DNA of 39,919 nucleotides from Herpetosiphonaceae bacterium (lineage in GTDB: Bacteria; Chloroflexota; Chloroflexia; Chloroflexales; Kallotenuaceae), in the NCBI GenBank assembly GCA_013821605.1, contig JACDGP010000044.1, positions 1 to 39,919 on the forward strand, read 5' to 3'. Shown piece after piece: positions 19,481 to 22,449 of this stretch. Under the pieces are notes generated by a model, which was not told where the DNA came from, ran no database searches, and worked only from the letters and a program-made list of their open reading frames with translations. How positions within the stretch are numbered: position 1 is the stretch's first letter; every line of letters begins with the position of its first letter. The position numbers were made by a program, and so were the translations under genes.

Positions 19481-20533
19481 TCAACCTTGGATCAGCACCA
19501 ACTCCGCCGAAAAGCCCGGCCCGAAGACGCACAACAAACCATACTCGTCTGGCTTAATGCTGTTCGTCTGGAGAAAGCGCTGGAGCACGAAAAAGATCGT
19601 AGCCGAAGACATGTTGCCATAGTCTCGTAGCACCCTACGGCTATGTTCTAGGGCCTCGCAGGGCAAGTCTAGCGCCTCTGCATAGGCCTGCAACACCTTC
19701 GCTCCCCCAGGATGGTAGATATGATGCCGGACATCAGCCAGCGTCAGGCCATGCAGCCCAAGGAACTCTCTTGCCAACTCGCGGTACTGCTCGGACACAA
19801 CGCGTGGAATACCGGCACCAAAGACCACCCGGAACCCCTCGTCCACGACATCCCAGCCCATCAGGTTAAGCGAATCCGGAAACAGCGTCGAGCGTGTCCC
19901 AAGAATGCGTGCCCCCCGTGCCCCCACCTCGTCGCCTGCCACGATGACCGCCGCCGCTCCATCACCGAACAGCGAAAATGCCACAAGGTTGCGCTTGGAA
20001 TGATCATTGAGCTGTGCTGTAAGCGTACAAAGTTCGACCGTCACGAGCAGCACACGATGGTTGGGAAACGCGCGCACATATTCTTCAGCCCGTTCCAGAC
20101 CACCAAGGCCACCTGCGCAGCCTAAGCCCCAGATAGGAGTGCGGCGCGTGTGTGGATCGAGCCCCAGCAAGGTAATCAGCCGTGCATCAATTGAAGGTGC
20201 CGCCAGTCCGGTCGTTGAGACAAAGATCACATGATTGATATCATGCGGCACTAGCTCAGCCTGTGCCAAACATGTACGGCTAACCGCCTCACCGAGCCGG
20301 GTTGCAGTGTCGAGGAAGAGATCGTTCGCCTCACCGAGCAGGTGCGGTGTTTCATACCAGTTGAGTGGCGCCGACAGGAAGCGTGTATCAATCTCAGCGT
20401 GGTCAAACACCGTTAGGTAGCGATCAGTATGAGGCAAGTCGGCGGCGAACAGTTCGCCTGCGAACTCCTTCGCAAATGCTTGGCTCACCTGGTATGGCGG
20501 AACGGCTGTAGTAACGGCGGCAATGATGGGCAA
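19481..20533 (-). CDS. Type III polyketide synthase (chalcone/stilbene synthase family)
   Basis: A 350-residue thiolase-fold enzyme that condenses malonyl-CoA units on a starter CoA to make alkylpyrones, resorcinols or similar aromatics. The catalytic triad is complete: C139 in GLGCAGGL, H274 in YHPGGAK and N307 in YGNMSSAT. The closing GPGFSAELVLIQG matches the family's GFGPG loop region with GPGFS. The start is a TTG at 20533, with AAGGAG eight bases before it. No methyltransferase or oxidase accompanies it, unlike many alkylresorcinol loci. It lies 110 bases downstream of the ABC-F gene on the same strand. Confidence 0.93.
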   Translation of the reverse strand: MPIIAAVTTAVPPYQVSQAFAKEFAGELFAADLPHTDRYLTVFDHAEIDTRFLSAPLNWYETPHLLGEANDLFLDTATRLGEAVSRTCLAQAELVPHDINHVIFVSTTGLAAPSIDARLITLLGLDPHTRRTPIWGLGCAGGLGGLERAEEYVRAFPNHRVLLVTVELCTLTAQLNDHSKRNLVAFSLFGDGAAAVIVAGDEVGARGARILGTRSTLFPDSLNLMGWDVVDEGFRVVFGAGIPRVVSEQYRELAREFLGLHGLTLADVRHHIYHPGGAKVLQAYAEALDLPCEALEHSRRVLRDYGNMSSATIFFVLQRFLQTNSIKPDEYGLLCVFGPGFSAELVLIQG

Positions 20534-20643: not shown

Positions 20644-22302
20644 TTAGGTCTTATTACTCTCGCGATATGGCCCTTCTAGCACACGAGCCTGCCCGTCGCG
20701 CACTTCGACCACCCGTTCTGCAAAGGAGCGTAAAAAGGCGCGGTCGTGGGCCACGGCGATCACCGTGCCCTCGAAGGCGTTCAGCGCATCCTCGAAATGC
20801 TCACGACTCTCGATATCAAGATGGTTGAGCGGCTCGTCCAGCAACAGCAGGTTACAGCCGCGCAGCACGAGCACTGCCAGTTGCAAGCGGCTGCGCTCAC
20901 CCAGCGAGCACGCACCAACCTCCAGATGAACACTGTCGCCCGCAAACAAGAAGAAATGAAGAAAGTTACGGGCCTCAGTTTCACTCATCGCACGCTCGTG
21001 GAGCACCGTTGCGAGTACGGTGCGCCGGATATCGAGCGTCTCGTGCTCTTGAGCCAACACGCCAATGCGCACGTTCGTACCCAGCCGGATCTGTCCCGCC
21101 GCCGGTTCTAAACGGCCCTCAATCAGTCGTAGCAAGGTGGTCTTGCCGGCACCATTTGGTCCGACCAAGGCGATCCGTTCCCCGTATTGGACGTCGAGCG
21201 TCAGGTCGTGGAACAGGAGCGGCGCATCGGGATAGCCGAATGCTAGTTCCTCGATCCGCAGGACTGCCCGTCCACTTTGTGGTGGTGGTCCAAAGTCGAG
21301 CTTAAGCTCCCACTGTGAGCGCGGCTTCTCAACCCGCTCCGCCGACTGCAAATAGCGCTCAAGCTTGCGCTCACGAGCCTTAGCCTGTTTAGCCAGCTTA
21401 GACGACACGCCACCATAATAATCGCGACCCCGTTTTGGTCCCGCTTGAACCTTCTGCGCATCACCTTTGATGCGGCCAATGTCGGCTTCGACTGCCGCGA
21501 CATACAACTGCTGGTCTTGCCACGCCGCGCCTTGCCGTTCGCGTTCGGCAGCGCGCGCTGCCGCAAAAGCACTATAGTTACCAGGATAGCTACGGATCGT
21601 GCGTGATTGGAGATCGAGATACAATGTGCGCGTGACCGTCCGATCCAGAAAGGCGCGGTCATGTGAGACCACCAGCACGCCCCCACGATAGCCCTGGACA
21701 AAGCCTTCTAGCCATTCCAAGGCAAGGGTATCAAGGTGGTTCGTTGGCTCGTCCAACACAAGTAGATCCGGCTCCTGCAGCAGCAAGGTCGCCAGCCCCA
21801 GCCGCGTCTTCTGACCACCGCTCAACACTGCGACCGGCAGCCCCGGATCGAGATCGCCCAAGCCCAGACCATTGGCAATCGCTGCCGCACGATGCTCGCG
21901 TTCATAACCACCAAGCGCTTCAAAATGCTCCAGGGCCTCAGCATAGGCGGCGAGTGCCGTATCAAGGTCGTCCGTACTTCCTAGCGCCTCGGTTGTCTGC
22001 TGCAGGGCGGCTTCGGCGGCAAGCAGCGGAGCTTGGGCGGCGGCGAGCGATGCTGCCACAGTCATATCATTCATGGCAGCGGCGGCCTGCGGCAGATAGC
22101 CGATCACCAAATCCTGGGGCGCACGCGTAACCGTGCCAGCATCGGGCTGTTCCTGGTCAACAATGCAACGCAGCAACGTAGTCTTACCCGCACCGTTCGG
22201 GCCAATCAGCCCGACATGTTCGCCGTCGTTGATAACGAATGAGATTCCGGCCAGCACGGTAGCACTGCCGTAGCTTTTATATAGGTTGTGGACCTGTAGC
22301 AT
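20644..22302 (-). CDS. ABC-F ribosome-associated ATPase, likely antibiotic resistance type
   Basis: A soluble 552-residue protein with two ATP-binding domains and no membrane helices. Domain 1 has Walker A GPNGAGKTT (34-42), signature LSGGQKTR (160-167) and DEPTNHLD (184-191). A charged linker (about 245-345) joins it to domain 2 with GPNGAGKTT (381-389), signature SLGERSRLQ (466-474) and DEPLNHLD (489-496), where Leu replaces the usual Thr. ABC-F proteins bind the ribosomal E site; resistance members dislodge peptidyl-transferase antibiotics. The leader with a translational attenuator (separate entries) supports the resistance role. GAGGAGG precedes the ATG. The alternative is a housekeeping EttA/Uup-type role. 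Confidence 0.88.
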   Translation of the reverse strand: MLQVHNLYKSYGSATVLAGISFVINDGEHVGLIGPNGAGKTTLLRCIVDQEQPDAGTVTRAPQDLVIGYLPQAAAAMNDMTVAASLAAAQAPLLAAEAALQQTTEALGSTDDLDTALAAYAEALEHFEALGGYEREHRAAAIANGLGLGDLDPGLPVAVLSGGQKTRLGLATLLLQEPDLLVLDEPTNHLDTLALEWLEGFVQGYRGGVLVVSHDRAFLDRTVTRTLYLDLQSRTIRSYPGNYSAFAAARAAERERQGAAWQDQQLYVAAVEADIGRIKGDAQKVQAGPKRGRDYYGGVSSKLAKQAKARERKLERYLQSAERVEKPRSQWELKLDFGPPPQSGRAVLRIEELAFGYPDAPLLFHDLTLDVQYGERIALVGPNGAGKTTLLRLIEGRLEPAAGQIRLGTNVRIGVLAQEHETLDIRRTVLATVLHERAMSETEARNFLHFFLFAGDSVHLEVGACSLGERSRLQLAVLVLRGCNLLLLDEPLNHLDIESREHFEDALNAFEGTVIAVAHDRAFLRSFAERVVEVRDGQARVLEGPYRESNKT

Positions 22303-22303
22303 G

Positions 22304-22371
22304 GTGCCTCCTCATAGGGGAGACACGCGGTGTGTCTCCCGATTACAACATGGGGTAGATGTTGGAGACAC
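22304..22371 (-). promoter_or_regulatory. erm-type translational attenuator in the ABC-F leader
   Basis: Four mRNA segments: 1 = GTGTCTCC (22371-22364, inside the leader ORF), 2 = GGGAGACAC (22340-22332), 3 = GTGTCTCCC (22326-22318), 4 = GGAGGCAC (22311-22304, containing the ABC-F Shine-Dalgarno). Segment 1 pairs perfectly with 2 (8 bp, plus an inner 5-bp AACAT/ATGTT stem), 3 pairs with 4 (8 bp including one G-U, 7-base loop), and 2 pairs with 3 (9 bp perfect, 5-base loop). The first arrangement hides the ribosome site; the second frees it. A ribosome stalled on segment 1 would switch expression on. Sequence and pairing are seen; the drug response is inferred. Confidence 0.8.
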
Positions 22372-22378
22372 TCGTCAT
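22343..22378 (-). CDS. Leader peptide of the ABC-F attenuator (11 codons)
   Basis: ATG at 22378 is preceded by AAGGAG (22390-22385) with a six-base gap, the best ribosome site in the neighbourhood. It encodes MTSVSNIYPML and stops with TAA at 22345-22343, three bases before segment 2 of the attenuator. Codons 3-5 lie in segment 1. Short leader ORFs of this kind control many erm and ABC-F resistance genes by drug-dependent stalling; I do not recognise this peptide sequence among known ones. Confidence 0.75.
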   Translation of the reverse strand: MTSVSNIYPML

Positions 22379-22432
22379 ACCAAACTCCTTACACAGGCCA
22401 ATCAACCAGCCGCAATCACTTGGGGCGAGGTG

Positions 22433-22449
22433 CTTATATGGTACCATAT
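22433..22449 (-). promoter_or_regulatory. Weak -10 candidate overlapping a 14-bp palindrome, ABC-F promoter region
   Basis: ATATGGTACCATAT (22436-22449) is a perfect palindrome. On the minus strand it runs into TATAAG (22438-22433), a -10-like hexamer that would start a leader of about 125 bases before the ABC-F ATG. No good -35 is visible. The palindrome could be a repressor site or chance. Confidence 0.3.

Follow-up and report, generated by a model that had tools for sequence, protein, structure and literature searches.

A leader open reading frame as predicted translational attenuator of an ABC-F gene in a Chloroflexota bacterium

The DNA analyzed here (the window, 39,919 nucleotides) is a whole contig from the 5.9-Mb genome of a Herpetosiphonaceae bacterium. 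Its minus strand carries an ABC-F gene, ahead of which lies a leader with a short open reading frame (ORF) and four segments that can pair with one another. The upstream neighbor is a histidine kinase gene whose end lies ~210 bases from the ABC-F gene. On the other side, 110 bases downstream, the minus strand carries a gene of type III polyketide synthase-like character (chalcone synthase fold; 19481-20533), which may be co-transcribed with the ABC-F gene. Following the direction of transcription, the features are:

22438-22443, minus strand: inferred promoter −10 element, TACCAT
22405-22431, minus strand: conserved 5′-UTR element, ACCTCGCCCC...GCGGCTGGT, a possible hairpin at the mRNA 5′ end
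22385-22390, minus strand: Shine–Dalgarno (SD) sequence of the leader ORF, AAGGAG, kept in most close orthologues
22343-22378, minus strand: leader ORF of 11 codons, MTSVSNIYPML plus TAA stop (ATG at 22378, TAA at 22345-22343)
22364-22371, minus strand: segment 1, GTGTCTCC, leader codons 3-5, an anti-SD sequence
22332-22340, minus strand: segment 2, GGGAGACAC
22318-22326, minus strand: segment 3, GTGTCTCCC
22304-22311, minus strand: segment 4, GGAGGCAC, inside GAGGAGGCACC and overlapping the ABC-F SD sequence AGGAGG (22307-22312)
20644-22302, minus strand: the regulated gene, an ABC-F ATPase of 552 aa with two ABC_tran domains and an ABC_tran_Xtn linker

The linker that joins the two ABC domains contains a long helical hairpin (helices 243-287 and 293-319), and the protein has no membrane part, which is the architecture of ARE ABC-F proteins. 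The linker is ~19 residues longer than that of YheS and ~11 shorter than that of VmlR2. The nearest solved folds to the predicted structure (mean pLDDT 85) are PoxtA, EttA, and VmlR2, and the protein is also close to EttA, YheS, and Uup. It matches NF000355 at 418.9 bits (cut-off 380), a cut-off that is exceeded in 8 of 14 control genomes, so this model is not specific to resistance proteins. Within the order, 13 of 82 genomes have the gene; the figures are 18 of 158 for the class and 12 of 400 sampled for the phylum. The gene is therefore patchy among related species, unlike housekeeping ABC-Fs. Since patchiness is expected of resistance ABC-Fs (PMC6723617), this distribution favors a resistance role, and the protein is predicted to give resistance.

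Read on the minus strand, the 5′ part of the leader is AAGGAG-TTTGGT-ATG ACG AGT GTC TCC AAC ATC TAC CCC ATG TTG TAA, and the remainder is TC-GGGAGACAC-ACCGC-GTGTCTCCC-CTATGA-GGAGGCAC-C-ATG. The leader ORF, its AAGGAG, and the four segments had all been located correctly by the initial annotation. It had also held that the ORF stops right before segment 2, from which TAA is separated by two bases, and that segment 4 is the ABC-F SD; the overlap with AGGAGG agrees with this, and GAGGAGGCACC directly precedes the ABC-F ATG at 22302.

The leader appears to be served by a promoter of its own, judged by an alignment (A1, consensus TAnAAT) that sets TACCAT against TATAAT-like hexamers of the orthologues; a promoter consensus scan gave no hit on the leader's strand, this −10 element included. 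Just past it, the 5′-UTR element (ACCWCGCCCC...GCGGCWGGT) is strongly conserved between the window and loci L002-L007, L032, and L033. Its W-W pair is U-A instead of A-U in L005 and L006, which suggests a 5′-terminal hairpin; the corresponding alignment (A4) is ragged, and individual pairs are not scorable from it. No terminator-like site was found within the leader on the minus strand. Control of the ABC-F gene is thus probably purely translational, and transcriptional attenuation was rejected on this ground. Control of the tRNA or T-box type was rejected as well, there being no tRNA gene and no match in an Rfam scan.

The segments can form the three helices that had been proposed, in a 1:2 plus 3:4 versus 2:3 pattern. 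Helix 1:2 has eight pairs, all Watson–Crick; helix 2:3 has nine and reaches −15.8 kcal/mol as a lone hairpin; helix 3:4 has eight, including one G-U. Such matched alternatives are indeed rare by chance: when the leader was dinucleotide-shuffled with the SD kept, only 2 of 3,000 versions held 1:2, 2:3, and 3:4 as linked helices with eight or more pairs each. The overall folding energy of the leader is unremarkable taken alone (z −1.5). A further pairing, not weighed in the initial annotation, joins segment 1 directly to segment 4 over eight pairs. With helix 2:3 nested inside, it gives a hidden state of −42.5 kcal/mol, against −38.1 for 1:2 plus 3:4, a gap of 4.4 kcal/mol. The favored hidden state therefore has segment 1 on the SD, with 2:3 nested inside. 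The anatomy of the leader and the mutual exclusivity of its alternative pairings are shown by these results.

The computed effect of a ribosome on the leader depends on where it stands. With the P-site at any of codons 1-8, the cost of opening the ABC-F SD falls from 5.8 to 1.4-4.1 kcal/mol. With the P-site at codons 10-12, the SD is closed more tightly, at 8-10 kcal/mol, because the ribosome then covers segment 2. The predicted rule is thus that early stalls induce and late stalls repress. For the window alone, a stall at leader codon 2 compares with shuffles at p 0.09, which is suggestive only. Within the control set that includes it, the window gene comes first at 5.1, with the next at 2.7.

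Orthologues of ~46-69% identity, gathered from the family, order, class, and phylum, provide a broader comparison. Leader ORFs were called by an automatic rule: an SD-like motif, a start codon, no more than 16 codons, and an end at least 15 bases before the gene. By this rule, 19 of 23 ABC-F orthologues have an SD-led leader ORF (3-14 codons) versus 14 of 184 control genes (8%), an enrichment with a Fisher p of 1.5e-14 when relatedness is ignored. The control genes came from 20 stretches (~400 kb) of three genomes, with the window gene removed. Among the four exceptions, the ORF of L085 overlaps the gene, and L086, L088, and L090 have no leader ORF. In 17 less related ABC-F genes of the same order (40-46% identity), three chance ORFs occur and the SD is little affected. 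L031 (the ABC-F locus of G072, same order) and L037 have an identical leader.

The encoded peptides are unrelated between orthologues. Besides MTSVSNIYPML of the window, they are MFTTPFFHAAY, MTRVSH, MERVSFNRSIY, MKGA, MERVFFDPNLI, MTTSPIFHATY, MVDRLLH, MTGRFLIFKAH, MACISSR, MEATARSSDTRF, MEIAPIGRDGDTRF, MRQ (twice), MIN, MTETR, MRRTLSI, MKIALLRVTRF, and MVCSI, the shortest (MRQ, MIN) having three residues. Macrolide-arrest motifs (+X+ or IFVI-type) were sought in these peptides and none was found, and no enrichment of any one amino acid was seen. The expectation that relatives would conserve the leader ORF is thus borne out for the ORF, and not for the peptide it encodes.

Several individual loci deserve mention. 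The leader ORF of L082 (upstream of position 850; TTG ATC AAT TAG) encodes MIN; the vmlR uORF of Bacillus subtilis has this tripeptide too, which may be coincidence. The orthologue at L034 (G062:C119) carries one in-frame TAG and may be a pseudogene, a sequencing error, or a case of readthrough. L008-L013, from one family of the same order, have an ABC-F gene of 41% identity and, ~80 bases upstream, a leader ORF that overlaps this gene by 70 bases in another frame. A leader-to-start-region duplex of 12 pairs, TGTTTGATGATC:GATCATCGAACA, is found in L008 and L009, and this long duplex is nearly intact across all six species. The arrangement appears to be a second form of attenuator, one with an overlapping ORF.

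At their lowest energy, the leaders of most orthologues fold with the first leader codons on the ABC-F SD and a separate hairpin nested between them. L002 and L032 fold instead as 1:2 plus 3:4, the leader's own SD acting as segment 1. With a ribosome footprint placed at leader codon 2, opening the SD becomes cheaper by a median of 3.8 kcal/mol, versus 0.07 in shuffles. This stall effect is individually significant (p < 0.05) in 11 of 19 orthologues, with a combined p of 8e-12; L002, L007, and L032 show little of it in the footprint model. A simpler shuffle test of the leader:SD duplex gives a weaker result, with 6 of 19 below 0.05 and a combined p of 1e-5.

Covariation in the orthologue leaders had been put forward as a check. 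Scored by column in a MAFFT alignment of the eight most alignable leaders, it goes in the right direction and is weak (2:3 88.9% paired, 3:4 96.9%, with one register slip in L035), because registers shift between distant leaders. A swap test was used in its place. Each leader paired with its own SD gives a mean of −18.1 kcal/mol, versus −12.6 for swapped partners, and 0 of 100,000 permutations were as good. Examples of such own pairs are GTGTCTCTCAC:GTGAGAGGCAC (L003), ACTCTTTC:GAAAGAGT (L084), GCTCTCCTGC:GCAGGAGAGC (L087), and TTAGCCACCTTC:GAAGGATGGCTAA (L082). By this measure of sequence, leader and SD co-vary across relatives. The recurrence of one design, in almost wholly different letters, in distant relatives indicates that selection maintains it. 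At the level of sequence comparison, selection is thus shown for leader ORFs that open with codons complementary to the ABC-F SD. This combination of fast sequence turnover and constant architecture offers a clean example of compensatory evolution.

These comparisons make a ribosome-dependent attenuator of the ABC-F gene a well-supported reading. We consider it very probable that the leader at 22300-22390 acts as a translational attenuator responsive to stalled ribosomes; the ABC-F protein would be made when a drug stalls them and would protect the ribosome. In a transcript without a stall, the first part of the leader ORF (segment 1) would mask the ABC-F SD. The masking could be direct, by 1:4 around the nested 2:3 hairpin, or indirect, by 1:2 plus 3:4. 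A drug-bound ribosome stopped within about the first eight leader codons would cover segment 1. The 2:3 hairpin would then hold segment 3 off the SD, and the ABC-F protein would be translated and would shield the ribosome. The computed release of the SD by a stall on the uORF is what this class of attenuator predicts, and the leader:SD co-variation supports it. That the stall is induced by drugs is the most likely function, by analogy with the vmlR, cplR, lmrC, and msrD leaders.

The character of the leaders also bears on which drugs these may be. Peptides that are not conserved and lack macrolide-arrest motifs point to drugs that stall ribosomes at initiation or right after it. Obana and colleagues argued that, on uORFs that are very short and variable, the likely stalling agents are pleuromutilins, lincosamides, streptogramin A, and nucleoside drugs, whose action after initiation depends little on context (PMC10201436). 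Early-stalling drugs therefore fit leaders of three to fourteen codons, without a conserved peptide or +X+ motif, better than macrolide arrest does. We infer that drugs of the pleuromutilin, lincosamide, and streptogramin A type, stalling at or soon after initiation, are favored over macrolides.

The initial annotation described a complete erm-style attenuator. Such a switch would have 1:2 plus 3:4 as its hidden state, and a peptide-specific, macrolide-type arrest at a particular codon would trigger 2:3. Its four segments, with the SD in segment 4, and all three of its helices are present in the window, 1:2 could form first during transcription, and the close relatives L002 and L032 do fold this way. 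However, 1:4 plus 2:3 is the more stable state in the window, direct leader–SD pairing prevails in most relatives, and the peptides are wholly different, down to three residues, and lack +X+. The gene controlled is moreover an ABC-F gene and not a 23S rRNA methyltransferase gene. What stands of that description, on the strength of the relatives, is ribosome-dependent attenuation of the ABC-F gene; the classical erm-type switch itself is unlikely.

It is less probable still that the leader responds to amino acid shortage or general translation stress, with starvation or slow-codon stalls rather than antibiotics inducing a housekeeping-type ABC-F factor. Any stall on codons 1-8 would open the SD, and the protein's proximity to EttA, YheS, and Uup is compatible with such a role. 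Yet the leaders show no bias toward one amino acid, the gene is patchy where housekeeping ABC-Fs are not, and the leader is absent from the 17 other ABC-F genes. The 2:3 hairpin, being stable alone, might also suggest that the hairpins are static and do no more than set a low level of translation or the stability of the mRNA, with an incidental leader ORF. Both the frequency of leader ORFs among orthologues relative to control genes and the leader–SD co-variation make this very improbable. A drug-responsive attenuator is the preferred reading.

We give roughly even weight to a broader proposal: that Chloroflexota have a phylum-wide class of purely translational ABC-F attenuators, with the leader ORF itself serving as the anti-SD element. 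If so, the switch would be set by position and complementarity, independent of peptide sequence, and would respond to whatever drug arrests ribosomes at initiation or immediately afterward, whereas a stall late in the leader or at the stop codon would repress. The orthologue leaders offer a natural set for asking which ribosome drugs need no peptide context. The findings suggest that environmental bacteria of the Chloroflexota type meet ribosome-targeting natural antibiotics, and that these lineages evolved or share the same ribosome-sensing logic.

Ribosome-sensing control of resistance ABC-Fs is known in Bacillota and Actinomycetota. Searches of open-access papers gave no earlier report of such attenuators for Chloroflexota ABC-F genes, in agreement with the initial annotation, and a uORF survey has included Chloroflexota erm homologues (PMC11264731). 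Translational sequestration of an SD under uORF control is known from erm genes (PMC5118997, PMC8274638) and is one of two layers in cplR (PMC10201436) and vmlR (PMC9226507). The ermC and ermB leaders share with the window a leader ORF, alternative hairpins, and translational control by SD sequestration (PMC5118997, PMC8274638). They differ in controlling an rRNA methyltransferase through peptide-specific macrolide arrest, whereas the window has an ABC-F gene, no arrest motif, and a dominant 1:4 pairing.

The closest parallels are leaders of other ABC-F genes. A short uORF with its own SD precedes the ABC-F gene in the window, as in that class; an intrinsic terminator, present in most described cases and not strictly defining, was not found in the leader. 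In Clostridioides difficile, cplR has a very short uORF (MRI) with an anti-SD, and its SD, hidden in a stem, is freed by a stalled ribosome (PMC10201436). That leader belongs to another phylum, is unrelated in sequence, and also has an intrinsic terminator, although translational attenuation alone is enough for repression (PMC10201436). The vmlR leader of B. subtilis likewise has its uORF, MIN, near the leader start and a hidden SD, and lincosamides and pleuromutilins stall the ribosome there at initiation (PMC9226507). It depends heavily on antitermination and RNA polymerase pausing (PMC9226507), whereas the leader described here hides the SD and has no terminator. Ribosome-mediated attenuation of an ABC-F gene outside Bacillota has a precedent in lmrC of Streptomyces lincolnensis, where attenuation is transcriptional and uses a terminator (PMC8546547). 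The device in the window joins the known ABC-F attenuators, such as those of VmlR and CplR; it may be a distinct form, given the missing terminator and the lack of peptide conservation.
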